NCBI GenBank assembly: GCA_019694595.1
Contig: JAIBBQ010000042.1
Span: forward strand, 1 to 37,466
Origin: Myxococcaceae bacterium
GTDB lineage: Bacteria > Myxococcota > Myxococcia > Myxococcales > Myxococcaceae
DNA length: 37,466 nt
Direction of reading: 5' to 3'
Shown: piece after piece, positions 20,448 to 37,466 of the stretch
Layout: each line of letters opens with the position of its first letter
Numbering within the stretch: position 1 is the first letter of the stretch
Notes under the pieces: model-generated
Databases searched by the model: none
Told to the model about the DNA's origin: nothing
Seen by the model: only the letters and a program-made list of their open reading frames with translations
Translations under genes and position numbers: made by a program

Positions 20448-20463
20448 CGAGATGAGGTGCCCG

Positions 20464-21732
<1,269 letters not shown>

Positions 21733-21733
21733 C

Positions 21734-22804
21734 TCACTCCCGCATCAACGCGGCGCCCCAGTGGAAGCCGGCGCCCAGGCCCACGAAGCACACCAGGTCG
21801 CCCTGCTTCACGCGGCCTGACTTCTTGCACTCGTCGTAGGCGATGGGAATCGTCGCCGCGGTGGTGTTCCCGTACTTCTGGATGTTGTTGTACACGCGGT
21901 CGTCGGGGAGCTTGAGCGCCTTCTGCACGGCCTCGCTGATGCGCAGGTTCGCCTGGTGGGGAATGAGCAGGTCGATGTCGTCGAGCGTGACGCCCGCCTT
22001 GGCGCACACCTCGTGCACCGCCTCGGGCATCTTGGTGACCGCCATCTTGAAGACCGTCTTCCCGTCCATCACCGGGACGAAGCGGCCTTCCTTCACGTGG
22101 GCCTCGCTGAAGTACGGGCGGTACTTGAAGCCGGCCGACGGCACGTAGAGGCTTTCCACCGGGCCGCCTTCGGCGTGCAGCGCGAAGCCCAGGAGCCCGC
22201 GGTCCTTCGACTCCGACGGCCCCATCACCACCGCGCCCGCGGCGTCGCCGAAGAGCACCAGCAGGTGGCGGAACTTCGAGTTCCAGTCCTTCTCGCTCTG
22301 GGGAATCGGCCCTTCGGAACGGCCCATGACCACGTCCCACCCCTGGGGTGAGAAGGGCATGAAGCCCGAGTGAATCTCGCAGCCGATGAAGAGCAGCCGC
22401 TTCGCCGCCCCGGCGCGGATGAGCGCGTCGGCCACCTGCAGGCCGTAGACGAAGCCCGAGCACTGCTGGCGAATGTCGAGCGCCGGCACGTTGGTCATGC
22501 CCAGCTTGGTCTGGATGAGGCTGCCGACGCCCGGGAAGTAGTAGTCCGGGGTCATGGTGGCGACCACGATGTAGTCGATGTCGTTGGCGGTGAGCCCCGC
22601 GTCGGCGAGCGCCTTCTGCGCGGCGCCCACGCCGAGGTCGCTGGTCGCGGTGCCCTCGGTGACGAAGTAGCGCTGCTCGATGCCCGAGCGCTCCTTGATC
22701 CACTCGTTGGTCGTGTCCACCACCTTGGCCATGCGCTCGTTGGTGACCAGCGTGTCACCGACGACGAAGCCAGAGCCCAGGATGCGCGAGTGCCCCATCG
22801 ACAT
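21734..22804 (-). CDS. 3-oxoacyl-ACP synthase III family protein (FabH-like)
   Basis: A 356-residue FabH-type ketosynthase with the full Cys-His-Asn triad: C115 in IRQQCSGF, H283 in IPHQAN and N313 in YGNTTAA. Fatty-acid FabH enzymes are about 317-330 residues. This protein is longer because of an insertion at about 147-182, between the GCEIHSG and FGDAAGAVV motifs, which lies near the substrate tunnel in the family fold. It may start fatty-acid synthesis or act in a secondary pathway. ATG at 22804 has an AGAGGA ribosome site. It is divergent from the aminotransferase (73 bp), with no acyl-carrier protein or FabD nearby. Confidence 0.85.
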   Translation of the reverse strand: MSMGHSRILGSGFVVGDTLVTNERMAKVVDTTNEWIKERSGIEQRYFVTEGTATSDLGVGAAQKALADAGLTANDIDYIVVATMTPDYYFPGVGSLIQTKLGMTNVPALDIRQQCSGFVYGLQVADALIRAGAAKRLLFIGCEIHSGFMPFSPQGWDVVMGRSEGPIPQSEKDWNSKFRHLLVLFGDAAGAVVMGPSESKDRGLLGFALHAEGGPVESLYVPSAGFKYRPYFSEAHVKEGRFVPVMDGKTVFKMAVTKMPEAVHEVCAKAGVTLDDIDLLIPHQANLRISEAVQKALKLPDDRVYNNIQKYGNTTAATIPIAYDECKKSGRVKQGDLVCFVGLGAGFHWGAALMRE

Positions 22805-22877
22805 GAAAGTCCTCTTGGAAAAGGGGCGCCGGGTGTAGGCCTCGGGCCCCTGCGGTTTCAAGCCGCACCACGCCAAG

Positions 22878-24053
22878 ATGTGGACCCTCGACCCCACCAT
22901 CGCCTTCCTGAACCACGGGAGCTTCGGGGCCTGCCCGAGGCCCGTTCAGGACGCGCAGGCCCGCTGGCGGGAGCGCATGGAAGCCGAGCCGGTGCGCTTC
23001 TTCGTGCGCGAGCTGGACGCGGCGCTCGACGCGGTGCGGGAACGGCTGGGCGCCTTCCTGGGGGCGCGCGGCGACGACCTCGCCTTCGTGCCCAACGCCA
23101 CCACCGGGGTGAACGCGGTGGTGCAGCGCTGGGCCCTGAAGGCCGGCGACGAGGTGGTGGTCACCACCCACGGCTACAACGCCTGCACCAACGCGGTGCG
23201 CTTCGTCTGCGACCGCGCCGGCGCCACGGTGCGCTTCGCCGAGCGCCGCTTCGCCATCGCCGCGCCGGACGAGGTGGTGGACGCGGCCCGGGCGGTGCTC
23301 ACCGAGCGCACCCGGTACGCGCTCATCGACCACGTCACCAGCCCCACCGGGCTCGTCTTTCCCGTGGCCGAGCTCATCGCGCTCTTTCAGGGGCGCGGCG
23401 TCGAGGTGCTGGTCGACGGCGCTCACGCCCCGGGCATGCTGCCCCTGCAGCTCGAGGCGCTGGGGGCGAGCTGGTACGCCGGCAACCTGCACAAGTGGGT
23501 GTGCGCGCCCAAGGGCTCGGCGTTCCTCTGGGTACGCAAGGACCGCCAGGCGGCGCTGCGGCCGCTGGTCATCTCCCACGGCGCCAACTCGCCGCGCACC
23601 GACCGCTCGCGCTTCCGCCTGGAGCACGACTGGGTGGGCACCGACGACCCGAGCCCGTTCCTCTGCGTGAGCGACGCGCTGGACACGCTGGAGCGGCTCC
23701 TGCCCGGGGGCCTGCCGGCGCTGCAGGCGCGCAACCACGCCCTGGCGCTCGACGCGCAGCGGCTGCTCTGCCGGGCCCTGGGCATCGCGCCCCCCGCTCC
23801 GCCCTCGATGCTGGGGAGCATGGCGAGCCTGCCGCTGCCCCGTCGCACCGGGGGGCCGACCGCGGGCTTCAGCGACGTGGGCGACCCGGTGCAGGAAGCG
23901 CTCTTCCACCGGCACCGCATCGAGGTGCCCATCTTCCCGTTCGCGGGAGGCCGGCTGATGCGGGTGTGCGCCCAGCACTACAACCGCCTCGAGGAGTACG
24001 AGCGGCTGGCGGGCCTGCTGCCCGGGCTGCTCGCCACCGCGCCCACGTTCTGA
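22878..24053 (+). CDS. Class V aminotransferase (PLP enzyme)
   Basis: A 391-residue PLP fold-type I protein of the class V/isopenicillin-N-epimerase-like branch. The PLP lysine is K206 in GNLHKWVCAPKG. D180 and H183 in VLVDGAHAPG bind the cofactor ring, and NATTGVNAV (73-81) is the phosphate-side segment. The N-terminus FLNHGSFGACPRPV is typical. Substrate is unknown: desulfurase, epimerase and aminotransferase activities all occur in this branch, and no partner settles it. ATG at 22878 has no convincing ribosome site. The next gene starts 19 bp after its stop. Confidence 0.87.
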   Translation: MWTLDPTIAFLNHGSFGACPRPVQDAQARWRERMEAEPVRFFVRELDAALDAVRERLGAFLGARGDDLAFVPNATTGVNAVVQRWALKAGDEVVVTTHGYNACTNAVRFVCDRAGATVRFAERRFAIAAPDEVVDAARAVLTERTRYALIDHVTSPTGLVFPVAELIALFQGRGVEVLVDGAHAPGMLPLQLEALGASWYAGNLHKWVCAPKGSAFLWVRKDRQAALRPLVISHGANSPRTDRSRFRLEHDWVGTDDPSPFLCVSDALDTLERLLPGGLPALQARNHALALDAQRLLCRALGIAPPAPPSMLGSMASLPLPRRTGGPTAGFSDVGDPVQEALFHRHRIEVPIFPFAGGRLMRVCAQHYNRLEEYERLAGLLPGLLATAPTF

Positions 24054-24072: not shown

Positions 24073-24984
24073 ATGCGTTTCGCCGCCATCGACGTGGGGA
24101 CCAACTCGGTGCTGCTCCTGGTGGCGGAGCGCGACGCGCAGGGCCGCTTCCACGCCGTGACCGAGCGCGCGGAGATCACCCGCCTGGGCAAGGGCGTCGA
24201 CCAGTCCCGCATGCTCTCGCCGGAAGGCCTCGAGGCCACGGTGAAGGTGCTCGCGGCCTACGCCGACGAGGCGCGGGCGCTCGGGGCCACCACCATCGTC
24301 GCCTCGGCGACCAGCGCCGCGCGTGACGCCCGCAACGGCGGCGAGCTGCTCGCGCAGGCCAAGGCGCGGGCGGGCGTGGACATCGAGGTCATCTCCGGCG
24401 AGGAAGAAGCGCGGCTGTCCTTCGCGTCTGCCGCGGCGGACTTCGGCGGCGGCGGCCCCCTGCTGGCGGTGGACATCGGCGGCGGCTCGACGGAGATCAT
24501 CGTGGGCACCGCGCGCGGCGAGGTCTCCTTCCGCCACAGCTTCGACGTGGGCTCGGTGCGCCTCACCGAGCGCTTCATCCGCTCCGACCCGCCGAGCGAC
24601 GCCGAGCGGGCCGCGGTGCGCGCGCACCTCAAGAGCGTGCTCGCCCAGGTGCCGAAGGCCACCGGCACCCTGGTGGGCATCGCGGGCACCGTGACCACGG
24701 TGTGCGCCATCGCCCGCGAGGTCGAGCCGTACGACGCAGCGAAGGTGCACGGCGCGCGGCTCACGCTGACCGAGGTGCAGCGGGTCTGCGACCGGCTGTG
24801 GGCGCTGGCGCTCGCCGAGCGCCGCACCCTGCCCGGGCTGCAGCCCAAGCGGGCCGACGTGATTCCCTGCGGCGCGGAGATCCTCCTCGCGGTGATGCAG
24901 GCGCTGGGCGTCGACGGCACCACGGTGAGCGACCGCGGGCTGCGCTGGGGGCTCCTGGTCGACCGCTGCGGGACGCGCGCGTGA
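24073..24984 (+). CDS. Ppx/GppA phosphatase family protein
   Basis: A 303-residue actin-fold phosphatase. AIDVGTNSVLLLV (about 5-17), SGEEEARLSF, AVDIGGGSTEII (about 136-147) and GIAGTVTTV (about 202-210) are the nucleotide/phosphate motifs of exopolyphosphatase and pppGpp phosphatase. It lacks the extra C-terminal HD domain of long Ppx, so it is the short form. Members hydrolyse polyphosphate or (p)ppGpp; sequence alone does not decide. A TACCTT hexamer ends 11 nt before the ATG. The MFS gene overlaps its stop (GTGA), so they are translationally coupled. Confidence 0.9.
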   Translation: MRFAAIDVGTNSVLLLVAERDAQGRFHAVTERAEITRLGKGVDQSRMLSPEGLEATVKVLAAYADEARALGATTIVASATSAARDARNGGELLAQAKARAGVDIEVISGEEEARLSFASAAADFGGGGPLLAVDIGGGSTEIIVGTARGEVSFRHSFDVGSVRLTERFIRSDPPSDAERAAVRAHLKSVLAQVPKATGTLVGIAGTVTTVCAIAREVEPYDAAKVHGARLTLTEVQRVCDRLWALALAERRTLPGLQPKRADVIPCGAEILLAVMQALGVDGTTVSDRGLRWGLLVDRCGTRA

Positions 24985-26216
24985 AGAGCCAGCGCACCGC
25001 AGCCTTCGTCGGCCTGGGCGTGCTGAGCCTCATCAACCTCGTCAACTACCTCGACCGCTACATCCTCGCGGGAGTGATGCGGAAGGTGCAGGCGGAGTTC
25101 ACGCTCACCGACGCCGAAGGGGGCTCGCTCGCGACCACCTTCATGCTCGTCTACATGTTCGCCTCGCCCGTCGGCGGGTACCTGGGCGACCGGCTGCCGC
25201 GCCGCTTCCTCATCGGGGCCGCGGTGGCGGTGTGGAGCGTGGCCACCATCGGCTCCGGCCTGGCCACCACCTTCGTCATGCTGCTGGTGGCCCGGGCGCT
25301 GACCGGCGTGGGCGAGGCCGGCTACGGCACCGTGGCGCCGTCGTTCATCAGCGACCTCTTCGACCCGCGGGAGCGCTCGCGCTGGCTGTCGGTCTTCTAC
25401 ACCGCGATGCCGCTCGGGGCGGCGCTGGGCTTCATCCTCGGCGGGCTGATGGCCGACCGGGCCACCTGGCACCACGCCTTCTACGCCGGCGGCGTGCCCG
25501 GGCTGGTGCTGGCGGTCGCCGTGCTGTTCCTCAAGGAGCCGCGGCGCGGCGCGATGGACGGGCCCGACACGCCCAGGCCGGTGGCGTTCTTCGACGGGCT
25601 CGGCCAGGTGGGCCTCAACCCCCGCTTCTGGTTCACCACCGCGGGGCTCACCCTGATGACCTTCTCGGTGGGGGGGCTGTCGTTCTGGATGCCCAAGTAC
25701 CTCGCCGAGCACCGCGGGCTGTCGGACACCGACGCCGGCCTCTACCTGGGCGCGACCACGGTCATCGGCGGGCTGGTGGGCACGCTCGCCGGCGGCTTCC
25801 TGGGCGACTGGCTCGACGCGCGACGGCCCGGCGGCGGCGTGCTGCTGTCGGCGCTGGGCCTGCTGGCCGCGGCGCCGCTGATGGTGGCTTCCGCAGTGGT
25901 GGAGCAGCCCAACGTGCTCTTCGTCTGCCTGTTGCTGGCGCAGTTCTTCATCTTCCTGCAGGGCGGCCCGCTCAACGCGTCGATCCTCGCGGCGGTGCCC
26001 CCCACCCTGCGCGCCTTCGCCTTCGGACTGAGCACGCTGACGCTCCACTTCCTCGGCGACGCCATCTCGCCCACCGTCATCGGCGTCATCAGCGACGCCG
26101 CGGGCCTGGGGCTGGCCATCAAGCTGAACGCCCTGCCGCTGGCGCTGGGCGGCGTGGTGCTGCTCCTGGGGCTCAGGCACTTCCGGGCGGCGGTTCCGCC
26201 ACCACGCGCGGCCTGA
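24981..26216 (+). CDS. MFS transporter, Spinster-like
   Basis: A 411-residue major facilitator with about 12 hydrophobic segments. LINLVNYLDRYILAGV in the first helix, GGYLGDRLPRRFLIG between helices 2 and 3, and GVGEAGYGTVAPSFISDLF are typical of the Spinster branch. Some animal Spinster proteins carry lysophospholipids or sphingosine phosphate; bacterial substrates are not known to me. The GTG at 24981 overlaps the Ppx/GppA stop and gives a normal N-terminus; the long upstream frame is not coding. Its last 44 bp overlap the end of the PlsC-type acyltransferase on the other strand, and the final residues are a Pro/Ala tail. Confidence 0.88.
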   Translation: MKSQRTAAFVGLGVLSLINLVNYLDRYILAGVMRKVQAEFTLTDAEGGSLATTFMLVYMFASPVGGYLGDRLPRRFLIGAAVAVWSVATIGSGLATTFVMLLVARALTGVGEAGYGTVAPSFISDLFDPRERSRWLSVFYTAMPLGAALGFILGGLMADRATWHHAFYAGGVPGLVLAVAVLFLKEPRRGAMDGPDTPRPVAFFDGLGQVGLNPRFWFTTAGLTLMTFSVGGLSFWMPKYLAEHRGLSDTDAGLYLGATTVIGGLVGTLAGGFLGDWLDARRPGGGVLLSALGLLAAAPLMVASAVVEQPNVLFVCLLLAQFFIFLQGGPLNASILAAVPPTLRAFAFGLSTLTLHFLGDAISPTVIGVISDAAGLGLAIKLNALPLALGGVVLLLGLRHFRAAVPPPRAA

Positions 26217-27504
26217 GCTCGCTGGCCACCCGGTCGATCTCTTCCGCGAGCCGCTCGCCTTCCACCAGCAGCAGCGCCTTCAGCCGGCCCCGGTTGCCCA
26301 GGGTGAAGAAGGTGCGGATGTCGCCCAGCGCGCCGCGCCACCGCTCGATGAAGTACCGGGTGAACATCGCCAGCGGCAGCATCAGCGCGGAAACGAGCAG
26401 CCCCGCGGTGCCCCACAGCCGCAAGCCCACGTACGACAGCAGCGCCTGCCACAGCGGCGTCATCACCAGCGCGCCCACGAACTTGAGCGTCGCCACCCGG
26501 TCGGGAGCGAGCGGCACCACCCGGCTCGCGATGCGCACCGTGTAGAAGGGAATGGCGAAGAGCACCAGCCCGAGCGCGAACAAGGGCAGCCCCAGCAGCA
26601 GCGAGGCGAGGCTGCGGCCGACGAAGCGCGCCACTTCCGGGCGGCGGTACTGGAGGTCGAGGTCGTCGGGGCTGGCGTTCACCAGCTGGAGCCTCGAACG
26701 GAAGGACATCACCTCGTCGCGAATGGCCTCGAACGCCTCGGGGTGCTCGGCGCGGTAGAGCTCGACGCCGCGCGCGAAGCGGCGCACCCGCTCGGGGTCG
26801 CGGGTCTGCTCACCGAGGCGCAGCGAGTAGAGCTGCTCGGCGGTCTCGATGAGCTCGAGGTCGGCCCACTGCTCGAGGTTGAGCGTCACCGTGCGCAGCG
26901 CCTCCGACACCCGGGCGGTGACGGTCTGCACCCAGGCCACCTCGTCGTCTCCACCCGCGGCCGGGGGCGCGGGGAGCTCGAGCGGGGTGCCCACCTCGAG
27001 GTGCACCCGGCTGCGAAAGCGCTGCTTCTGCGCGTAGGTGAGGCCCACCGGCACGATGCGCACCGTGGCGCCGCCGCGGGCGGCCTTGAGCGCGATGCGG
27101 GCGCACCCGGTCTTGATCTCCGCCAGCTGCGGCTCGGAGTGCGACTTCCCTTCCGGGAAGATGGTGATGGCGCGCCCCTCGACCAGCGCCTTGGCCGCCG
27201 TCTCGAGCGTGCCTTCGTTCTTCTCCATCAGGCCCGGGTGGTCCTGCTTGCGGTACACCGGCAGCGCCCCCAGCGCGCGCAGCAGCCAGCCGAAGACCGG
27301 GGTGCGGAAGAGCGGCTCCTTGGCGAGGAACGTCACCTGCCTGCGGGTGACCACGAAGACGAGCGCGGGGTCGATGAGGCTGTTCGGGTGGTTGCCCACC
27401 AGCATCACCGGGCCGTCGAGGTCACCGGCGCGCGAGACCGTCTCGAGCCGGTAGAAGAGCCCGAGCGCGAAACGCACCAGAACGCGCACCACCCCGTAGA
27501 GCAC
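26173..27504 (-). CDS. PlsC-type 1-acylglycerol-phosphate/glycerol-3-phosphate acyltransferase
   Basis: A 443-residue membrane-associated acyltransferase. Catalytic motif I is GNHPNSLIDPAL: His39 to Asp45 with five residues between, not the four of classical PlsC; fungal Gpt2/Sct1-type enzymes share this spacing. FPEGKSHSEPQLAEIKTG (motif III) also follows the Gpt2/Sct1 pattern. The C-terminal third (about 300-400) has two or more hydrophobic segments. It probably acylates lysophosphatidate or glycerol-3-phosphate. The GTG at 27504 lies 18 bp after the Omp85 stop, so it is probably the last gene of that operon. TACGTT also ends 7 nt before the GTG and may be an internal promoter. Confidence 0.85.
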   Translation of the reverse strand: MLYGVVRVLVRFALGLFYRLETVSRAGDLDGPVMLVGNHPNSLIDPALVFVVTRRQVTFLAKEPLFRTPVFGWLLRALGALPVYRKQDHPGLMEKNEGTLETAAKALVEGRAITIFPEGKSHSEPQLAEIKTGCARIALKAARGGATVRIVPVGLTYAQKQRFRSRVHLEVGTPLELPAPPAAGGDDEVAWVQTVTARVSEALRTVTLNLEQWADLELIETAEQLYSLRLGEQTRDPERVRRFARGVELYRAEHPEAFEAIRDEVMSFRSRLQLVNASPDDLDLQYRRPEVARFVGRSLASLLLGLPLFALGLVLFAIPFYTVRIASRVVPLAPDRVATLKFVGALVMTPLWQALLSYVGLRLWGTAGLLVSALMLPLAMFTRYFIERWRGALGDIRTFFTLGNRGRLKALLLVEGERLAEEIDRVASELRPRVVAEPPPGSA

Positions 27505-27511
27505 GGCGCCG

Positions 27512-27517
27512 AACGTA
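27512..27517 (-). promoter_or_regulatory. TACGTT -10-like element upstream of the PlsC-type gene
   Basis: On the minus strand TACGTT ends 7 nt before the GTG at 27504, in the 18-bp gap after the Omp85 gene. No ribosome site is visible. It may allow the acyltransferase to be transcribed separately as a leaderless message. Confidence 0.3.
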
Positions 27518-27522
27518 CCGCG

Positions 27523-30522
27523 TCAGAACAGCCCGATGTTGAAGTGCAGGTTGAAGGCCGGCTCGTTCACCAGCGCGTCGGGGGCCAGGTTGACGCCCAC
27601 GTCGAGCGCCAGCGGCCCCACCGGCGTCACGTAGCGCAGGCCGGAGCCCGCCACCGTGCGCAGCCGGAAGCCGTCGGTGGGCAACGCCAGCCACAGGTTC
27701 CCCGCCTCGAGGAAGATGCCCAGGTCGAGCGCGCCGAAGGCGGGGAAGCGCAGCTCCGCCTTGCCCAGGGTGAAGAGCTCACCGCCCTGGGAGGCGATCT
27801 CCCGCCCCTGGAGCAGCGTGCGCGCGGCCGGGGTGCAGCCCACCGACGAGGCGAGCGCGCGGCAGTTGGCCACCTGCGCGTCGTAGTCGCGGCGCTGGTC
27901 GTCGGCGAGCAGGCCGTCTTCGCGGAAGCCGCGCATCGACGACGAGCCGCCCAGGTAGAAGCGCTTCACCGGCGGCGTCACCGAGCCGTTGGCGAGCGGG
28001 GCGATGCGCCCGCCGCGCAGCGACAGCGCCAGGGTGAAGCGGTTGCCCAGCGGCACGTAGCCGGACACGGTGCCCGACACCTTCAGGAACTGCACCGGCA
28101 CCTGGGCGTCGTTCTGGTCGCGGGTGAAGAGGTCGAAGGTGGTCTCCGCGGCCGCCTGCACCAGCACGCCCTTGCGCGGCACCACCGCGTCGTCGCGCAG
28201 GTCGAGCGTGGGAGCGAAGCGCACGGTGTGGAGCGCGAAGGTGCCGAAGAGGAAGCGCAGCCGTTCCTGGTCGAGCAGCGTCAGCGGGAAGGTGGCTCCG
28301 GAGGCGTTGCTCACCTGGAAGACGCGCGTCCATTCCAGCTCGTACTGCAGCTGCAGCGTCAGCTTGGGCCGCGCCCACTCGGGGTGCGGCAGCGGCAGCG
28401 GGGTCGACCAGTCGAGCCCGGGAATCGCCGCCAGCCGGGTGAAGCGGTACGACTGGCGGAAGACGCGCTCACCGACCAGGTCGAGCCGGGTGCCGATGCC
28501 GAACGGCAGCAGGCCCCGGTTGAAGACCGAGAGGTTCCCCCGGCCACCGAAGAGCTCGAAGCCCTGGAGGTCGCTGACGTCGATCTGCCTCGCCAGCGCC
28601 GGGGCGCTCGCGGCGAAGAAGTTGAGCCGGCCGCGCGCGGCGACGTGCACCGCGCGGCCCGCGAGGTTGGGGTACTCCGCGTCGACCGCCACCCGGGGCC
28701 CCTCGGCGAGGAAGTAGCCGAGGCCGAACTCGCCCGACAGCCGCGGCCGTTCCTTCAGGTCCACCACCACGTCCTTCACGCTCTCGGCGAGCTCCGGCGC
28801 CAGCAGGCGAATGTCGGCGGAACGGAAGATGCCCAGCTCGGCGAGCGCCCGCTGCGACTCGAAGAGCGCGTCGGCGTCGAGCGGCTCGCCTTCGTGCACC
28901 TGGAGCGCCCGCCGCACCACCGATTCCTCGGTGCGCTGCAGGCCCTTCACCAGCACCTTGCCCACCGTCACCTTGGGGCCGCTCTGGCCGCGCAGCAGCA
29001 GGTCCACCGACGTGCCGCCCTGGGACACGGTCCACTCGGCGGTCACGGTGTTGAAGAGGTACCCCTTGCGGCCCAGCGCCTGCCGCAGCGCCCCGCGGGC
29101 GCGCTCCGCCACGCTCTCCGAGAACACCTCGCCCGCCGTCGGCAGCACGCCGTCGAGCTCGACGTCGGCCGGCACCTGCAGCGCCTTGGCAGCGTGGAGC
29201 CGCGCCTGCGCCCCTTCCACCACCGTGATGTGGGCCCGGGCGACGTCGCCGTCGCGCTCCAGCGAGGTCAGGCTCACCTGCGCGCCCAGGTACCCCTTGT
29301 CCCGGTAGCGCTGGGCCATGGTGCGCAGCGCGTCGCGCCACACCGGTTCCACGAAGATGGTCTCCGCGGCCGGCTCGGGTGGGAAAGCCCACCGCGGCTC
29401 TTTCATCTTCCCTTCCAGCGCCAGCGGGTCGGACAGCGGGTGCACCTCGGGGCCGGTGTCGGGCACCGCCGCGCGCGTCACCTGCGCCAGCACGGCGATC
29501 AGCTCGGAGTCGCCGATGACGCGGTTGCCGCTGAAGGTGAGCTCCTGCACCAGCACCTGCGGCCCTTCGTCGACCAGGAAGGTGATGACCCCTTCGCGCC
29601 CGTCGCGCGACAGCCGCTCCACCGCGGTCACCCGCACGTCGCTGTACCCGCGGAAGCGGTAGAGCCCCTCGAGGCGCTCCGCCAGCCGCTCGCGGGCCGC
29701 GTCGTCGAGCAGCTCCTGGCTCACGTCGCCCAGCGCCGAGCGCAGCGCGGAATCGGCGAACGCGGTCGCGCCGTCGAACTCCAGCCGGAAGCGCGGCCCC
29801 GCCTCGATGGGCAGCCACAGCCGCCCGTCGCGGTCGACGCGCGGAGCGCCCACCTTCGCCCGCCAGCGTCGCCCCGCCACCAGCGCCTCGCGCACCCGGC
29901 CGAGTCCCACGGTGATGGCCTCGAGGTCCGCCACCTGGTCGCGTTCCAGCCCCATCGTCTCCAGCAGCACCGGCAGCGGCAGCCCCGGGTCGCCTTCCAC
30001 CACCACCGACTTCACCCGCACCGGCAGGCCTTCCTTCACCCGCACCACCACGTTGACGCCGCCCTCGGCGTCCTCGGCGTCGACGGTCACCTCCGCGTCG
30101 TAGTAGCCGCGCCGCCGGTAGAAGGCCTGCACCGCCTCGGTGGCCTCGTCGGTGCGGGCGAGGTCGACCTCGTCGCCCACCTCGAGCCGCGTGGCCTTGA
30201 GCACCTCGGCTTCGCGCAGCGCCTGCTGGCCTTCGGCGAAGAGCTCCAGCACCAGCTGCTTGGGGGTGAGCTCGAAGACGACGGTGACGCCGTCGGCCGA
30301 CTCGTCGGCGAAGGCGCGGGCGTCGGAGAACCGGCCCGTCTCCATCAGCCGCTCGAGCGAGCGGCGGACCGCGCGCAGCGACAGCGTCTGGCCCTTGCGC
30401 ACCGCGATGAGGCCGGGCACGCCTTCGAGCAGCTCGGGCCGCGAGCCGCTCGGCAGGCGCGCTTCCACCCCGTCCACCACGGGCGCGGCCGCGAGCGCTG
30501 CCAGCAGCACCGCCCCCAGCAT
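27523..30522 (-). CDS. Omp85 family outer-membrane protein with seven POTRA-like repeats
   Basis: A 999-residue outer-membrane protein: signal peptide (1 to about 13), POTRA-like repeats at about 17-86, 90-166, 168-244, 244-320, 322-438, 438-514 and 516-592, then a 16-strand-type barrel (about 600-999) ending in F. Repeats share R/K-G-Y or G-x-F followed by A/V-x-V. The fifth carries a ~45-residue insertion (353-398). GGSSSMRGF (858-866) is the lid motif that closes the barrel. Loop cysteines C887 and C896 may form a disulfide. BamA has five POTRAs and TamA three, so this is neither. Its ATG overlaps the TamB stop (TGATG), which suggests a TamA-like partner of TamB. Confidence 0.9.
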   Translation of the reverse strand: MLGAVLLAALAAAPVVDGVEARLPSGSRPELLEGVPGLIAVRKGQTLSLRAVRRSLERLMETGRFSDARAFADESADGVTVVFELTPKQLVLELFAEGQQALREAEVLKATRLEVGDEVDLARTDEATEAVQAFYRRRGYYDAEVTVDAEDAEGGVNVVVRVKEGLPVRVKSVVVEGDPGLPLPVLLETMGLERDQVADLEAITVGLGRVREALVAGRRWRAKVGAPRVDRDGRLWLPIEAGPRFRLEFDGATAFADSALRSALGDVSQELLDDAARERLAERLEGLYRFRGYSDVRVTAVERLSRDGREGVITFLVDEGPQVLVQELTFSGNRVIGDSELIAVLAQVTRAAVPDTGPEVHPLSDPLALEGKMKEPRWAFPPEPAAETIFVEPVWRDALRTMAQRYRDKGYLGAQVSLTSLERDGDVARAHITVVEGAQARLHAAKALQVPADVELDGVLPTAGEVFSESVAERARGALRQALGRKGYLFNTVTAEWTVSQGGTSVDLLLRGQSGPKVTVGKVLVKGLQRTEESVVRRALQVHEGEPLDADALFESQRALAELGIFRSADIRLLAPELAESVKDVVVDLKERPRLSGEFGLGYFLAEGPRVAVDAEYPNLAGRAVHVAARGRLNFFAASAPALARQIDVSDLQGFELFGGRGNLSVFNRGLLPFGIGTRLDLVGERVFRQSYRFTRLAAIPGLDWSTPLPLPHPEWARPKLTLQLQYELEWTRVFQVSNASGATFPLTLLDQERLRFLFGTFALHTVRFAPTLDLRDDAVVPRKGVLVQAAAETTFDLFTRDQNDAQVPVQFLKVSGTVSGYVPLGNRFTLALSLRGGRIAPLANGSVTPPVKRFYLGGSSSMRGFREDGLLADDQRRDYDAQVANCRALASSVGCTPAARTLLQGREIASQGGELFTLGKAELRFPAFGALDLGIFLEAGNLWLALPTDGFRLRTVAGSGLRYVTPVGPLALDVGVNLAPDALVNEPAFNLHFNIGLF

Positions 30523-33500
30523 CACTCCCACTCGAAGCGGAACTTCAGGTCCACCCCGGGGTTGCCCACCGAGGAGTCCTGGCTCTGGTTGTCCCACTGC
30601 GCGCGGGCCGACACGCGGGGGTTGAAGCGGTACTCCGCCTGCGCCTTGGTGCCGCGGCCGGTCACCGGCTGGGTGACGCCCACGGTGAGCTTGTCGGTGC
30701 CCACCTTGGCTTCCCAGCTCACCGACGGCTCCGCCTGGCCGGTCGCCTCGTTGAACGACGTCGACAGCTGCACCTTCTGGTCCTTCAGGCCCACGTTGTT
30801 GCGCAGGAAGCGCTGCACCTCGCGCTCGAGGCCGGTGGCAGACAGCAGCGCCTCGGCGGCCAGACCCGCGCCTGCCTGGCTGGCGAGCTTCTCCTTCGAC
30901 GTCACGCCCAGGGTGATGAGCGCCAGCACGTCGGACTCGGGCAGCGACGGCTCGGAGGTGAGCTGCACCTTGAGCTCGGACAGCGGGCCGAACGCCTTCA
31001 CCCCCACCAGGTACTCGCGCACCTGCGTCTGCGCCGACAGCTCCACCGACGGCTGCCCGCCGGGGAAGGTCACCACCCCGCGCGTCACCTGGAAGGTGTG
31101 GTCGCGGAAGAAGCCCTGCGCGCCTTCGGCCGTCTCCAGGCTGCCCAGGAGCACCGGCTCGGCGTTGGTGCCCTGCACCTTGAGCTTGCCGGTGAGCCGT
31201 GCGCGGGCGAGCGCGTTGTCCACGCGCACGTCGCCGCGGGAAGCGTCGAGTTCCAGGTCCAGCGCCAGCCAGGGCGCGGCCTTCTCGGTGGGGGCGAGCA
31301 GCCGTGGCGCCGCCACTTCCTGGAGCAGCGACTCCAGGGTGAAGCCGCGGGTGTACTTGAGGCGAGTCACGTCGAGCGTGCCCGAGAGCTGCCAGTGGCC
31401 CGGGGTCCCGTAGAACAGGAGCGGCCCCGTCAGCGTCGCCGGCAGCTCGGGCCGCGGCGCGTAGCTCACCTCTTCGAGGTCCAGCCCCAGCTCCGCGCGC
31501 TCGACGTGGAACTGCTTGAGCATCAGGTCGCCGCGGCCGGTGGCCTTGCCGTCGTTCAAGAAGCCCTGCACGTCGTGCACCAGCACGCGGTCCTGGGAGA
31601 ACTCGGCCTTCGCCTGCAGCGCCTTGCCCCACAACCCGGCTTCCTTGAGCTGGAAGCGCCCGTCGGTGAGCGACGCCGTGCCCACCACCGACGGCGCGTC
31701 GACCGCGCCGCTCACCGAGGCCTGCAGCGCGACCCGCCCGCCCGCCCGCTCGAGCCCGGGCACGAAGGCTTCCAGGAGCCGCAGGTCCACGTTGGCCTCG
31801 GTCTGCAGGTCGGCGGTCGCCGGCCCGAAGGTGCCCTGCGCGCGGATGCGGGAGTCCGCGCCTGCGAGCGCGAACGAGCCCAGGGTCAGCTTGCCTTGCT
31901 GCCACGCCACCGCCACCGGCCCGTCGTTGGCCAGCGAGAGGTCGCCGCGCTGCAGCTGCAGTTTCGAGAGCTCGGCCTGCACGTCGGTGGCGGCCACCGC
32001 GGGGAGATTGCCCGCGAGCTGCACCACGCCCTTGAGCGAGCCCGACAGGCCTCGCTGGGTGAGGCTCGCCGGCAAGAACGGCTTGAGCTCGTCGATGGCG
32101 ACGTCGTACCGCCCGGTCCAGGGGAACGGCTCGCGCGCCAGCACCTTGAGCTGCCCGCGCGCGCCCGTGAAGGGCGTGCCGAAGACCTCGAGGTCGCGGC
32201 CCTGCATGCGCAGCTCGAGCTGCATCGGGCCCACCGGGTGCTGCGCCCACGTCACCTGGCTCGAGGTGAGGTAGCCCTGCAGCTGCGGCAGCGCGGGGGT
32301 GCCTTCGACCTTGAGCTTGGCGGACGCGGGCCCGGTGACGCCGCTCGGCTCCGCCCACTCGCGGCCCAGGAGCTCGGTCAGGTCGCCCTGGTCCAGCGAC
32401 ATCGCGAAGGCCATGCCGCCTTCGAAGGCCCAGCGCCCCGAGGCCGAGAAGGTGCCCAGCGGCCCCTTGAAGTGGAGCGGGTCGAGCACCAGCGCCTGGC
32501 TCTGGTCGAGCCGCAGCGACAGCGCCGCATCGCCCAGCCGCCGGCCGTAGAAGGTGGCGCCCTTCATCGCCAGGGTCACGTGGCCGTCGTTGGCCTTCGC
32601 CGGGCCGTGGAACTCGACGTGCCCCACCCCGTCGCCCACGAGCGAGCCCTGCAGCGTCTGCAGCGTCGGGTGGAGCGGCCCCACCAGCGCCAGCACGTCT
32701 TCCAGCCGCGCCCTGGGCAGGTCGGCCTGCGCGTCGACGAAGAGGCCTTCGTCGCGGAAGTCGAGCGCCGCGGTGCCGCTGAAGCCGGTGCGCCCCTTCT
32801 GCCCCACGAGCGACGGGAAGCGCAGCAGCCCCCGCCGGAAGGCGATGGGCGACTGCACCACGCCAGGGGCGTAGCCCGCGAAGACCAGGTCGCGCACCGA
32901 GAGGCGGCCGGTGATGTCCACGTCGGCGTTGGGCCCCACGATGTCCACCGACGCGGTGCCCTGCCCGCTCATCGGCAGCCCGGCGATGGCCCCGAAGTCC
33001 GACAGCTGGAGCGACTCGGCGTCGACGTGAATCGAGAGCCCGCGGTCGAGCGCGTAGTGCAGCACCACCTCGCCCGCGACCTTGGTGCCGCCCTGCAGGC
33101 CGGCCTGCACCCGCACGTTGTGGAACTCCACCCGGTCGCTCAGCACGGCGAGCCGGAAGGACGCGTGCGCCTGCGGGAAGGTGAGAATGGTGGGCCCCGC
33201 CGACTCCGGCCCGTCCCACGGGCGCGCCGCGAGGGTGAAGTGACCCACGCGGGCGTCGATGTCCCCGGTGAGCGCGGGCTTGGGCAACAGGGCGCCGGTC
33301 ACCACCCCGCTCACCGAGGCCGGGAAGTCGACCCACACGCCCTTCTGCCCCGCCCGGTCCATCACGTGCGCGAAGGACGCGTTCTCCGTCTCCACCTTGA
33401 CCTTCACCGGCCAGGCGCCGCCCACCTTCATCTCTCCCGACAGCTTCACCTGCCCCGCGCCCGCCTTGCTGACGAAGGACTCCAGCCGCAGCTCGTCGGT

Positions 33501-34400
33501 GGTGGCCGCCAGCACCGCGCTGAAGTCGCCGGGCCGGGCCGGCCCCAGGGTGACGCCACTCGCCTGCACCTCGGCGCGCGCGCGCGGCGAGCTGGTGCGG
33601 CCCGACACCGACACCCGGGCCGAGATCTGCCCTTGCGCGTCGACGCCCAGCAGCGGGGCGGCCGACGCCAGCGGCACGTAGAGCTGGCCCTGCAGCGCGA
33701 GCAGCGGCGCCGGGTCGCACAGCTGCTCCACGGTGCCGGTGAGCGCTGCCGTGGCCCCCGCGACCCCGGTCTCCGCGCGGCTCAGGCTCACGCTCGCCGA
33801 GTCCACGTCGAGGTCGGCCTCCAGGAGCGTGCGCCCGAGCGCGAGGTCGCGCTCGCCGTCGGCGAACCGCCCGCCCTTCACCGCGAGCTGCACGTTGACC
33901 TGCGAGCGGCGCGCCGCCCACTTGAGCTCCACCCCGTCGAGCGCCAGCTGCCGGGCGCCCTGCCGCAGCTCCACGGTGCCGTCTTCGATGAGCAGCGCCT
34001 CGACCTTGACCCGGCGCAGCGCGTCCAGCGGGCAGCGCTTCGGGCCGTCGTCGGCGCCCCCTTCGGGGATCGCGAGCGTCAGGTGCGGCCGCACCAGCTT
34101 GAGCTCGTCGAGCGTCACGTGCGACCAGAGCACCGACCGCAGCGACACCGGCGCGAGCTCGGCGGTGGCCAGCACCGTCCCGTGCTCCTTCACCGCCACG
34201 TCCTCGAGCTGCACCGAGAACTCCAGCGGCTCCACGTGGCAGCGCGCGGCGTCGACTTCCACCCCGAGGTGCCTGGGGAGGTCGTCGCGCAGCGCCCCGC
34301 AGATGGCCACGCCGGCCCGCTCGCTGCGCAGGGCGAGCACCAGCGCGGTCGCCGCCAGTGCGACCACCACCAGCGCCCTGCGACCGCGACGAAGTGCCAC
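30522..34400 (-). CDS. tamB: TamB / AsmA-like translocation and lipid-transport protein
   Basis: A 1292-residue protein with one N-terminal membrane helix (about 8-25) and then almost entirely beta-strand sequence. The C-terminal ~350 residues match the TamB (DUF490) domain, including LESLLQEVAAP, VTFPGGQPSVELSAQ, LPESDVLALITLGVTSK and a terminal strand RFEWE. TamB proteins span the periplasm and are thought to pass phospholipids or help insert outer-membrane proteins with an Omp85 partner. Here the partner follows directly with overlapping stop and start. The GTG at 34400 has an AGAGGAG ribosome site. It is 13 bp after the ATPase gene. Confidence 0.93.
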   Translation of the reverse strand: MALRRGRRALVVVALAATALVLALRSERAGVAICGALRDDLPRHLGVEVDAARCHVEPLEFSVQLEDVAVKEHGTVLATAELAPVSLRSVLWSHVTLDELKLVRPHLTLAIPEGGADDGPKRCPLDALRRVKVEALLIEDGTVELRQGARQLALDGVELKWAARRSQVNVQLAVKGGRFADGERDLALGRTLLEADLDVDSASVSLSRAETGVAGATAALTGTVEQLCDPAPLLALQGQLYVPLASAAPLLGVDAQGQISARVSVSGRTSSPRARAEVQASGVTLGPARPGDFSAVLAATTDELRLESFVSKAGAGQVKLSGEMKVGGAWPVKVKVETENASFAHVMDRAGQKGVWVDFPASVSGVVTGALLPKPALTGDIDARVGHFTLAARPWDGPESAGPTILTFPQAHASFRLAVLSDRVEFHNVRVQAGLQGGTKVAGEVVLHYALDRGLSIHVDAESLQLSDFGAIAGLPMSGQGTASVDIVGPNADVDITGRLSVRDLVFAGYAPGVVQSPIAFRRGLLRFPSLVGQKGRTGFSGTAALDFRDEGLFVDAQADLPRARLEDVLALVGPLHPTLQTLQGSLVGDGVGHVEFHGPAKANDGHVTLAMKGATFYGRRLGDAALSLRLDQSQALVLDPLHFKGPLGTFSASGRWAFEGGMAFAMSLDQGDLTELLGREWAEPSGVTGPASAKLKVEGTPALPQLQGYLTSSQVTWAQHPVGPMQLELRMQGRDLEVFGTPFTGARGQLKVLAREPFPWTGRYDVAIDELKPFLPASLTQRGLSGSLKGVVQLAGNLPAVAATDVQAELSKLQLQRGDLSLANDGPVAVAWQQGKLTLGSFALAGADSRIRAQGTFGPATADLQTEANVDLRLLEAFVPGLERAGGRVALQASVSGAVDAPSVVGTASLTDGRFQLKEAGLWGKALQAKAEFSQDRVLVHDVQGFLNDGKATGRGDLMLKQFHVERAELGLDLEEVSYAPRPELPATLTGPLLFYGTPGHWQLSGTLDVTRLKYTRGFTLESLLQEVAAPRLLAPTEKAAPWLALDLELDASRGDVRVDNALARARLTGKLKVQGTNAEPVLLGSLETAEGAQGFFRDHTFQVTRGVVTFPGGQPSVELSAQTQVREYLVGVKAFGPLSELKVQLTSEPSLPESDVLALITLGVTSKEKLASQAGAGLAAEALLSATGLEREVQRFLRNNVGLKDQKVQLSTSFNEATGQAEPSVSWEAKVGTDKLTVGVTQPVTGRGTKAQAEYRFNPRVSARAQWDNQSQDSSVGNPGVDLKFRFEWE

Positions 34401-34413
34401 CGCGTGGACTCCT

Positions 34414-35610
34414 CTAGAGCTTGCCCAGGCCCTCGAGATAGCGGTCGATCTCCGCGAGATCGACCCCCGACTTGGACGCAGGCGAACCCTCGAGATTCAC
34501 TGGGCGCGGCGCCGGTCCCTTGAGCACCTGCACGCCGGGGCCCGCCGAGGGGCGAGGCGCTGGAGGCGCCGGCGCCGGGCCAGGCCCGCTCACCGTCACG
34601 CCCTGGGGCACGATGCGCAGCTCCTGGGTCACGTCCTCGTCGTCGGGCGACTGCACCATCGGCGCGACCGGCGCGGGCGCGACCCGGACCGACGGCGCCT
34701 GCGGCGGCGGCTGCTGGTAGCGTGGCGTGGGCGCGGCGGGAGGCGGCACGAAGGCCGGCGGCGGAGGCAGCGCGGTGGCCTGCGGCTGCACCGGCCCGAC
34801 CTCGAGCCCCAGGTTGTCGGCGATCTGCTCGAGCAGCGGCCCGCGGATCTCCGGCGTGCGCGCGAGGAAGGCCTCGAAGAGCGCGTTGTCGCACAGGGTG
34901 TTGATGACCCGCGGCGTGCCGGCGCTCCGGCGGTGCAGCACCTGCAGCGCATCGGCGGTGAACGGCATGCGCGGGCAGCCGGCGAGCCGCAGCCGGTGCT
35001 TCACGTACGCCTCGGTGGACTCGGCGGTGAACGGCTCCAGGCGGTAGCGCATCGCCACCCGCTGCGCGAGCGGCGGATCGAGCTTCAGGTTCTTCTCGAT
35101 CTCCGGCAGCCCGAAGAAGACGAAGGAGATGAGCTTCCGCTCGGGGACCTCGAGGTTGAGCAGCCCGCGGAACTCTTCCATCAGCTCGCGGGTCTCGAGC
35201 ATCTGCGCTTCGTCGATCAGCACCACCGCCTTGCGGCCCTGCTCGTAGATCTGCAGCAGCCGCTGGTAGAGCTGCGAGAGCAGCGCGAGCTTCTCGTGCG
35301 CCGGGTTCTCCACCCCGAGCTGCAGCGCGATGCGCTTGAGCAGCCAGCTCGCGGTCACCCCGGAATGGATGATGACCAGCAGCGCCGCCTCGTATTCTTC
35401 CTCGGGCAGCGAATCGAGCATGCGCCGCGCGAGCGTCGTCTTGCCCGCGCCGATGTCGCCCACCAGCACCGACAGGCCCTTCATGTAGCTCACCGCGTGG
35501 AGCAGCCGGGTGAGCGCCTGCGAGTGCTGCGTGGAGTTGTAATAGAAGCGGCTCACCGGCGCGTTCGAGAACGGCTCCTGGCTGAGCTCGAAGAAGTCGA
35601 GGTAGGTCAC
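34414..35610 (-). CDS. ExeA/GspA-type AAA ATPase with Pro-rich tail
   Basis: A 398-residue ATPase. MTYLDFFELSQEPFSNAP at the N-terminus is the ExeA-family start, followed by Walker A GDIGAGKTT (51-59, K57) and Walker B VVLIDEAQ (129-136). SAGTPRVINTLCDNAL (about 235) is the sensor region of the family. ExeA-type ATPases help assemble secretion or pilus secretins. Residues ~275-380 are Pro/Ala/Gln-rich and probably disordered, followed by a short amphipathic end (VDLAEIDRYLEGLGKL). No peptidoglycan-binding domain is present. GTG at 35610 has an AAGG ribosome site. It starts 10 bp after the TPR gene stop, and TamB follows 13 bp downstream. Confidence 0.87.
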   Translation of the reverse strand: MTYLDFFELSQEPFSNAPVSRFYYNSTQHSQALTRLLHAVSYMKGLSVLVGDIGAGKTTLARRMLDSLPEEEYEAALLVIIHSGVTASWLLKRIALQLGVENPAHEKLALLSQLYQRLLQIYEQGRKAVVLIDEAQMLETRELMEEFRGLLNLEVPERKLISFVFFGLPEIEKNLKLDPPLAQRVAMRYRLEPFTAESTEAYVKHRLRLAGCPRMPFTADALQVLHRRSAGTPRVINTLCDNALFEAFLARTPEIRGPLLEQIADNLGLEVGPVQPQATALPPPPAFVPPPAAPTPRYQQPPPQAPSVRVAPAPVAPMVQSPDDEDVTQELRIVPQGVTVSGPGPAPAPPAPRPSAGPGVQVLKGPAPRPVNLEGSPASKSGVDLAEIDRYLEGLGKL

Positions 35611-35620
35611 GACCGCGCCT

Positions 35621-37466
35621 TCACAGGTAGCCCACCTTGCGCGCCCCCGGGCCGCGACCAGGTGCGCTCGCCTTGGGCAACAGGCCCGGGTCCGGCTCGG
35701 TCACCGCCGACAGCCGGGCCACGCTGGCCTTCACGTCGCGGTACGCCGGGTCGAGCTGCTCGACCTTGAGGAAGTGCGCCAGCGCCTTGCCCAGCTCCTG
35801 CGCCTGCTCCAGCGCGGCGGCGAGCTCGTAGCGAATGGCCTTCTCCACGTCACCGGTGGCGTGCGGGCTCTGCAGCGCGGCCTCGTAGGCTTCGACCGCC
35901 GAGGCCGGGTCGCCGCGCATCAGGTGCAGCGCGCCGCTCATCGCCAGGCAGTCGACTTCCTTCTTCTGGCCCACGCAGCCCTGCCGCGCGACGGTGAACT
36001 CGCCCACCGCGTCGTCGAGCAGGCCCATCTCCTTGTAGGCGATGCCCAGGTCGTAGTGGGTGTCGACGTCGCCCGGCTTCACGACCTTCTCGAGGCCCTT
36101 CTTGAACTCGGAGAAGACCTCTTCCACCGAGTACTGGAAGTCCTCGTCGGCCGCGGCCGGCGCAGGCTCCGCGGCGCCTTCGGTCTCGCCCAGCTCGCTC
36201 GCCAGCTCGGCGGCGAGGTCGAAGGCGTCCTTCCCTTCCGACTCGCCGTTGGGCGCCACCAGCGGCGGTGCCTCGGTGGGCGCGGTGGTCGCTTCCGTCG
36301 GCTGCTCGCCGGTCGCGTTGGCGCTGGCCGACCCCGCCTCGACCTTCGCCAGCATCTCCTGGGCGCGCACGTGCCCGGGGTAGGCGATGGTCACCGTCTC
36401 CAGGATCTCGCGGGCCTCGTCCCACAGGCCCTGCTCGATGAAGAAGCTCGCTTCCTCGAGCTCCTCGCCCGCGGGGTCCTCTTCCGCCGGCGCCTCCACC
36501 GCTTCCTCGGCGGGCGCCTCGTAGGCTTCCTCGGCCGGCGCCTCGACCAGCTCCTCTTCGGCGCCCGCGACGACCTGCACCTCGTCTTCGGGAGGCGGGT
36601 CGGACATCGCCAGGTTGCGGTCGGTCACCTCGACCGGCGCCTCGCCCAGCGCCAGGCGCGCCGCGCCCATGTCGGTGGGCACCTCGCGGGTGTCGAGGTC
36701 GTCGATGCCCGGCACGCCCGCGGTCTGGGTGACCGGGTCGTCCGGGGTGATGGTGTCGAACTCGCCGGTGTGGACCTCGGAGACCACCTCGTCGTCGACG
36801 CTCGCGGCCGCCGCCGAGAGCAACGGCTCGTCGGCCGCCGGGTCTTCCGCCAGCGGCTCGTCGCCGACCACCGCCTCGGGCTCGGAGATGGGCGGCGGCC
36901 CCAGGTCGTACCCGGGCGTCGACGACTCCCCGTCGATGGCCAGCGCCTCGTCGGCCACCATGTCGGGGTTGACCGCGCCCTCGTCGACGCCGCGCAGGCC
37001 CATGTCGCCGGCCAGGGCGTCCTCGGGGGCCTCCGCCACCACCAGCTCCTCGTCGCTGGTGTCGACGAGAATCGCCTCTTCCGCGGAGATGGCGTCTTCC
37101 GACTGCTGACCGTCGGGGCGCAGCACCGCGAGGAACGCCGGCACCTCGGGGTGGCCGGGGTTCTGCGCCAGCATCTGGGTGAGGAACGGCTGCGAGCGCT
37201 CGACGAGGCTGCGCCGGGTGTGCAGGCGCAGCACGTTGAGCAGCTGCTCGGCGGCCTGCGCCTGGTTGTTCGACGCCACGTAGATGTGGAACGCCTTCTC
37301 GTGGGCGTCGATGTTCTCGGGGTCGACCGCGAAGACCTTGCGCAGGTGGTCGAGCGCTTTGTCGTGCAGCCCGTACTTCACGTAGACGTCGGTCTCGGTG
37401 AGCAGCTTGCCGAGGTTCTCCTTCGGCGCTGCGGCGGCCGGCGCGGGCCCGGGCGGCGGAGGCGGG
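35621..37466 (-). CDS. TPR-repeat protein with acidic linker, N-terminus cut by window edge
   Basis: The frame is open to the right edge; at least 615 residues are visible and the start lies outside. It begins with a Pro/Ala-rich segment and then LLTETDVYVKYGLHDKALDH, the first of several TPRs (about the first 80 residues). A long acidic Glu/Ala/Pro linker follows with APAEEAYEAPAEEAVEAPAE-type repeats. More TPRs follow in the C-terminal half (HYDLGIAYKEMGLLDDAVGE, ALHLMRGDPASAVEAYEAAL). A TPR scaffold next to an ExeA-type ATPase suggests assembly of an envelope machine, but no machine gene is in view. The C-terminus (GARKVGYL) is 10 bp from the next start. Confidence 0.85.
   Translation of the reverse strand, partial: PPPPPGPAPAAAAPKENLGKLLTETDVYVKYGLHDKALDHLRKVFAVDPENIDAHEKAFHIYVASNNQAQAAEQLLNVLRLHTRRSLVERSQPFLTQMLAQNPGHPEVPAFLAVLRPDGQQSEDAISAEEAILVDTSDEELVVAEAPEDALAGDMGLRGVDEGAVNPDMVADEALAIDGESSTPGYDLGPPPISEPEAVVGDEPLAEDPAADEPLLSAAAASVDDEVVSEVHTGEFDTITPDDPVTQTAGVPGIDDLDTREVPTDMGAARLALGEAPVEVTDRNLAMSDPPPEDEVQVVAGAEEELVEAPAEEAYEAPAEEAVEAPAEEDPAGEELEEASFFIEQGLWDEAREILETVTIAYPGHVRAQEMLAKVEAGSASANATGEQPTEATTAPTEAPPLVAPNGESEGKDAFDLAAELASELGETEGAAEPAPAAADEDFQYSVEEVFSEFKKGLEKVVKPGDVDTHYDLGIAYKEMGLLDDAVGEFTVARQGCVGQKKEVDCLAMSGALHLMRGDPASAVEAYEAALQSPHATGDVEKAIRYELAAALEQAQELGKALAHFLKVEQLDPAYRDVKASVARLSAVTEPDPGLLPKASAPGRGPGARKVGYL

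Follow-up and report, generated by a model that had tools for sequence, protein, structure and literature searches.

The locus at the end of the analyzed DNA consists of two separable modules, SgmX–ATPase and TamB–long Omp85, which are joined only in some families of Myxococcota. The stretch of DNA that was analyzed (hereafter the window) is 37466 b in length and coincides exactly with contig C108. Judging by sequence comparison, the locus is the orthologue of MXAN_5766–MXAN_5763 of Myxococcus xanthus with one family-specific downstream gene. Since its first four genes represent this known locus and resemble bd2492–bd2495 of Bdellovibrio, the finding is largely known; the two-module structure, the separate Omp85 clade, the pairing of the acyltransferase with a transporter, and the joint loss of the SgmX tail and the ATPase are new here. 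Probably, SgmX acts with the cytosolic ATPase via its C-terminal tail, TamB and Omp85 form a separate bridge, and the acyltransferase belongs with the transporter. The link between the tail and the ATPase is the part of the locus that is worth testing: the tail and its joint loss with the ATPase offer a concrete and cheap test of a partner that would escape motility screens.

Layout of the locus and distribution of its modules

All five genes, encoding the SgmX fragment, ATPase, TamB, Omp85, and acyltransferase in this order, are read from the minus strand and are spaced by 10, 13, −1, and 18 bp; the ATG codon of the Omp85 gene and the TGA codon of the TamB gene have one base in common (Table 1). 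The coordinates agree with the arrangement described in the first-pass annotation, including the overlap of the TamB stop with the Omp85 start, and its gene naming concurs with the Pfam and NCBIfam searches, which identified TPR and SgmX, AAA_22, TamB, POTRA and Omp85, and Acyltransferase families in the five genes. A promoter and terminator scan found none, a result that carries little information at 72% G+C. Elsewhere in the window, a 3-oxoacyl-ACP synthase III-like protein is encoded on the minus strand (21734–22900) beside a TolB-like beta-propeller protein (20452–21732, plus strand).

Table 1. Coordinates of the sgmX locus and the convergent transporter gene in the window.
Feature	Position	Strand	Basis
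SgmX, C-terminal ~614 aa (stop at 35621; start on contig C100)	35621..37466	-	NF052243
Cytosolic AAA+ ATPase, ExeA/XrtA-ATPase type core, predicted MXAN_5765 orthologue	34414..35610	-	AAA_22, TIGR03015 below cut-off
ATPase linker (residues ~281-380, predicted disordered) and C-terminal helix 385-396 (VDLAEIDRYLEGLGKL)	34417..34770	-	AF2, motif conservation
TamB-like protein, 1292 aa, N-terminal membrane anchor	30522..34400	-	PF04357, hydropathy
Omp85 protein, 999 aa, 7 POTRA domains and 16-strand barrel	27523..30522	-	PF07244, PF01103, AF2, tree
PlsC-type acyltransferase, membrane segments in the C-terminal part; neighbour that is only loosely attached	26173..27504	-	PF01553, variable distance
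MFS transporter of the Spinster type, gene convergent with that of the acyltransferase	24981..26216	+	PF07690, SPNS1/SPNS2 structure matches

The first gene had been annotated as a TPR gene. TPR matches are indeed present, but the gene is incomplete in the window, because contig C108 ends inside it, and its identity as sgmX had been missed. The best family for its C-terminal part is NF052243 (569 bits), and the N-terminal 305 aa were found at the end of contig C100 (581 bits with the same model). Each half scores below the 1800-bit cut-off for the full-length family because the gene is split. As the N-terminal part is present on C100, the split is one of the assembly, and a broken sgmX gene was rejected. 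On C100, the accC, accB, and efp genes precede the start of SgmX on the same strand, with pilP and pilO further upstream; these five labels come from sequences read by eye, not from a family search.

The modules were traced in 58 genomes across the phylum, 40 of which encode a close relative of the ATPase (E at most 1e-80). The SgmX gene lies directly upstream of the ATPase gene in 30 of these 40 genomes, and the first four genes follow the window order in 20 of them, while the contig ends too soon in four others. In a second collection, SgmX and ATPase are adjacent in 73 of the best 80 loci, and an Omp85 gene follows the ATPase in 52. With the four-gene order kept in 20/40 genomes and Omp85 following the ATPase in 52/80 loci, the arrangement in the window is not due to chance. 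The SgmX–ATPase and TamB–Omp85 pairs are nevertheless apart in many relatives, and even sister species can differ in this respect (L073 versus L027). A single system made up of all five genes is not supported. A Myxococcus-like sgmX locus, with an ATPase that is 83% identical, is present under the title Comamonas sp. KCTC 72670 (L116:10001-10936); this record is probably a mislabelled or contaminated assembly.

SgmX tail and ATPase

SgmX is known in M. xanthus as a polar effector of MglA-GTP, which it binds, and as an activator of type IVa pilus formation (PMC7519303). The SgmX of the window ends in a conserved tail, ARKVGYL. The tail pattern, K-x-[IV]-x-[YF]-hydrophobic, is preceded by a variable stretch; 72 of 73 loci in the second collection have it, and it persists where SgmX is encoded far from the ATPase (L079 to L084). 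Among genomes with a readable SgmX end, 37 have both the tail and the ATPase, 10 have neither, three have the ATPase without the tail, and one has the tail without the ATPase (Fisher p 2.3e-7, uncorrected for kinship). In this count, G002 was scored by eye, and KINYI of G012 was accepted as a tail, although the pattern had missed it. The discordant cases are the ATPases without a tail in families f9 and f20 and the tail without an ATPase in G012. On the SgmX tree, joint absence requires eight changes, at least six of which are forced by supported branches, and even congeneric species, G055 and G040, differ in it. These repeated joint losses suggest, at the level of sequence, that the SgmX tail works with the ATPase.

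In many genomes, the 3′ end of the SgmX gene adjoins the ATPase gene, so a single deletion can remove both, and G043 appears to have lost the tail and the ATPase in this way. In G043 (L078:3866-13246), a tailless SgmX is followed immediately by TamB–Omp85 with no ATPase, an arrangement similar to that of Bdellovibrio.

The ATPase has an AAA_22 core (84 bits) in which the Walker A and B residues (G51, G54, G56, K57, T58, D133, and E134) are intact and invariant in 35 sequences. Its score with TIGR03015, the model of the XrtA/PEP-CTERM-associated ATPase, is 192.5 bits and is below the curated cut-off of 324.5. The name "ExeA-type" given to it earlier fits the AAA domain, but not the rest of the protein: the membrane segment of ExeA/GspA is absent (the highest 19-residue hydropathy is 1.39), and no periplasmic peptidoglycan-binding domain was matched by Pfam. 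The protein is 49–82% identical to 33 of its 34 relatives and 44% identical to the remaining one; for comparison, the identity of Omp85 to its relatives is 30–46%. A search of solved structures with the single sequence returned no relatives, a profile search returned only the transposition ATPases TnsC and MuB, and a fold search returned the MuB, TnsC, ORC, and RuvB types, which is uninformative as to function.

In the AlphaFold2 model of the ATPase, the pLDDT is 90–98 in the core, about 40 in the linker, and about 76 in helix 385–396. The protein would therefore be built of a folded core, a flexible linker, and a C-terminal amphipathic docking helix. The EIDxxL helix was found in 39 aligned ATPase tails, where D and the last L are invariant, I is present in 35, and E in 32. 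A strict C-terminal core pattern, confined to the last 30 residues, occurs in 25 coding-like ATPase ORFs and in 0 of 393 other coding-like ORFs of the same loci; in the second collection, which overlaps the first set in part, a somewhat relaxed version of the pattern matched 71 of 77.

According to the explanation that we favor, the ATPase would act at the pole, together with SgmX or upon it, SgmX being either its recruiter or its target; the conserved SgmX tail would couple the two proteins, and the tail helix of the ATPase may dock a further partner. In M. xanthus, social motility was unaffected when MXAN_5765 or MXAN_5764 was inactivated (PMC7668184), and deletion of MXAN_5763–5765 is reported, with a thesis as the source, to leave T4P motility unaffected (PMC11580455). 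Intact motility of these mutants implies that twitching, as assayed there, does not depend on any ATPase–SgmX coupling.

The joint occurrence may also be explained in another way, against which we lean: the SgmX tail and the ATPase helix would be independent pole-targeting or partner-binding peptides, and the lineages they share would reflect reduction of the polarity network. Several genomes without both features do carry divergent, fast-evolving SgmX proteins on long branches. Moreover, the SgmX proteins of families f13, f16, and f21 have an ELDxLL motif shortly ahead of the tail, 22–26 residues from the end (L079:3373-6486, also L080, L081, L084, and L097), which resembles the tail motif of the ATPase, so SgmX and the ATPase may bind one shared partner. 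Against this reading stand the repeated joint losses, among them the one within the single genus of G055 and G040, and the small number of discordant cases.

The form of the helix allows a more specific, though unlikely, reading, namely that it mimics the EIDALL motif by which FliM binds CheY (PMC9126983) and that it binds a CheY-like receiver domain such as that of FrzS or RomR. The ATPases of L041, L042, and L044 have EIDALL exactly, the window protein has EIDRYL, and SgmX is an interaction partner of the FrzS pseudo-receiver (PMC11580455). The motif, however, also resembles other amphipathic docking helices. A search of PDB sequences with the motif peptides returned only paxillin LD motifs, which were not significant (E 1.2), and did not recover FliM; the FliM reading of the helix thus stays a guess. 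A broader form of the favored explanation seems rather doubtful at present: a phylum-wide polarity module in which the ATPase would be coupled to SgmX via the SgmX tail, and a FliM-like (EIDxLL) docking helix of the ATPase would connect the control of pili at the pole with a receiver or another hub protein and, in certain lineages, also with a third Omp85–TamB bridge.

TamB, long Omp85, and the acyltransferase

TamB contains the PF04357 domain (residues 949–1291, 189.5 bits) and an N-terminal signal anchor, with a hydrophobic segment at residues 5–27 and a hydropathy peak at residue 9. In the AlphaFold2 model of Omp85, seven POTRA units and 16 barrel strands were counted from the secondary structure, and the nearest folds are those of BamA. 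On the maximum-likelihood tree, the Omp85 of the window falls into a clade with 98/96 support, whereas BamA and TamA make up two other clades (100/100 each). It scores 80 bits against the TamA cut-off of 625 and 268 bits against the BamA cut-off of 297; with its seven POTRAs and its position on the tree, it belongs to neither TamA nor BamA. A role as the sole BamA of the cell was also rejected, as a five-POTRA BamA candidate is encoded on contig C361. The long-Omp85 clade mixes members linked and unlinked to sgmX; of the sister pair L027 and L073, for example, only L027 is linked. Five more TamB-linked Omp85 proteins are more divergent and fall outside this clade.

TamB followed by Omp85 on the same strand was found in 43 of the 58 genomes, in 19 families. 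The two proteins had been taken for partners in the first-pass annotation, and they do appear as an old pair; the gene order that it described as opposite to the usual one is also borne out. The canonical order, Omp85 followed by a longer TamB, occurs for the most part in families f1 to f3; the genome of the window is one of these cases, as its contig C310 (L007:2660-9181) carries a second TamB with a short Omp85 upstream. One cell can therefore carry three Omp85 types, namely BamA, a TamA-like protein, and the seven-POTRA TamB-linked form, which matters for naming. A review gives M. xanthus BamA seven POTRAs (PMC6604945), whereas here the seven-POTRA form is the TamB-linked Omp85. We propose that TamB and the seven-POTRA Omp85 would form a bridge from the inner to the outer membrane that differs both from BamA and from the cell's canonical TamA/TamB, and by analogy may help to build the outer membrane or its proteins. 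Only in some families would the genes of this bridge share a transcript with the polarity genes. The earlier suggestion that the ATPase and the TPR protein assemble or position the bridge finds nothing in the analysis that speaks for it.

The acyltransferase matches PF01553 (76.9 bits, gathering score 23) and has the NHPNSLID and FPEG motifs; Aas-type models match it weakly. Close relatives of this protein, ACYLTRANSFERASE (E below 1e-100), occur only in the family of the window. Even there, the distance of the gene from the Omp85 gene varies: it is 19–70 bp in seven loci of a wider set, about 550–580 bp in Myxococcus, and 5–8 kb, on the same strand, in some family members, and the gene was not found within about 2.9 kb of Omp85 in Corallococcus, Archangium, and Hyalangium loci. 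Given this variable distance and the absence of close relatives in other families, the acyltransferase was rejected as part of a conserved operon. A paralogue (52% identical) without a Spinster-type neighbour is encoded elsewhere in the same genome (contig C187; L183:3527-4885).

The neighbour that stays with the acyltransferase is the convergent MFS gene, the end of which overlaps that of the acyltransferase gene by 44 bp. It was found beside the acyltransferase in most loci that reach far enough, with the exception of L184, and the pairing is kept where the acyltransferase has left the operon (L180, L181, and L182). The best structure matches of the transporter are SPNS1 and SPNS2 (E about 1e-46 to 3e-57). 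As a family-level neighbour that travels with a Spinster-type transporter, the acyltransferase gives little support to the idea that it makes lipids for delivery by TamB–Omp85. By analogy with LplT–Aas, import and re-acylation of lysophospholipids is a more plausible role for the two proteins than supplying TamB with lipids, and they may perhaps form such a salvage pair.

That all five proteins form one machine, in which the TPR protein and the ATPase position or energize a TamB–Omp85 bridge delivering lipids made by the acyltransferase, is very improbable: the tight spacing in the window, the four-gene order in half of the ATPase-bearing genomes, and the co-transcription of bd2492, bd2494, and bd2495 in Bdellovibrio (PMC3983030) agree with it, but the modules are apart in many families and sister species, the acyltransferase keeps the transporter rather than the operon, and SgmX acts on T4P in M. 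xanthus, where deletion of the next three genes is reported to have no effect on this (PMC11580455).

Comparison with known systems

In M. xanthus, SgmX (MXAN_5766), the ATPase (MXAN_5765), the TamB-like protein (MXAN_5764), and Omp85 (MXAN_5763) are encoded in the same order (PMC3983030), and MXAN_5766–5763 have been called a putative four-gene operon (PMC7668184). The M. xanthus locus L112 shares the gene order, the SgmX tail, and the ATPase motif with the window; however, its acyltransferase gene lies about 556 bp beyond Omp85, compared with 18 bp here. In Bdellovibrio, the TPR gene bd2492, the TamB gene bd2494, and the gene of the seven-POTRA Omp85 bd2495 likewise occur together, as one transcript, but no ATPase gene lies between them; the seven POTRAs of the window model correspond to those reported for Bd2495 (PMC3983030). 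This Omp85 is reported to be essential in Bdellovibrio, whereas for M. xanthus a deletion of MXAN_5763–5765 has been reported (PMC11580455).

The TamA–TamB system likewise pairs a PF04357 TamB protein with an Omp85 protein. It differs from the window in the reversed gene order, in having three POTRAs instead of seven, and in its separate clade, and a canonical pair is present elsewhere in the genome of the window. In the TamB–BamA operons of Spirochaetes and other phyla, the TamB gene also precedes a BamA-like gene (PMC4494059); the partner there is the only BamA of the cell, whereas the genome of the window has a separate BamA candidate.

MshM–MshN of the V. cholerae MSHA system resembles the SgmX–ATPase pair in that an ExeA-like ATPase gene lies beside a TPR-protein gene in a T4P context, a parallel drawn from the description and not from sequence comparison; deletion of MshM or MshN leaves piliation at the wild-type level (PMC4624765). 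LplT–Aas also places an MFS transporter gene beside an acyltransferase gene (PMC11416262). In the window, however, the transporter is of the Spinster type, the genes are convergent and do not form one operon, and the acyltransferase has membrane segments of its own.
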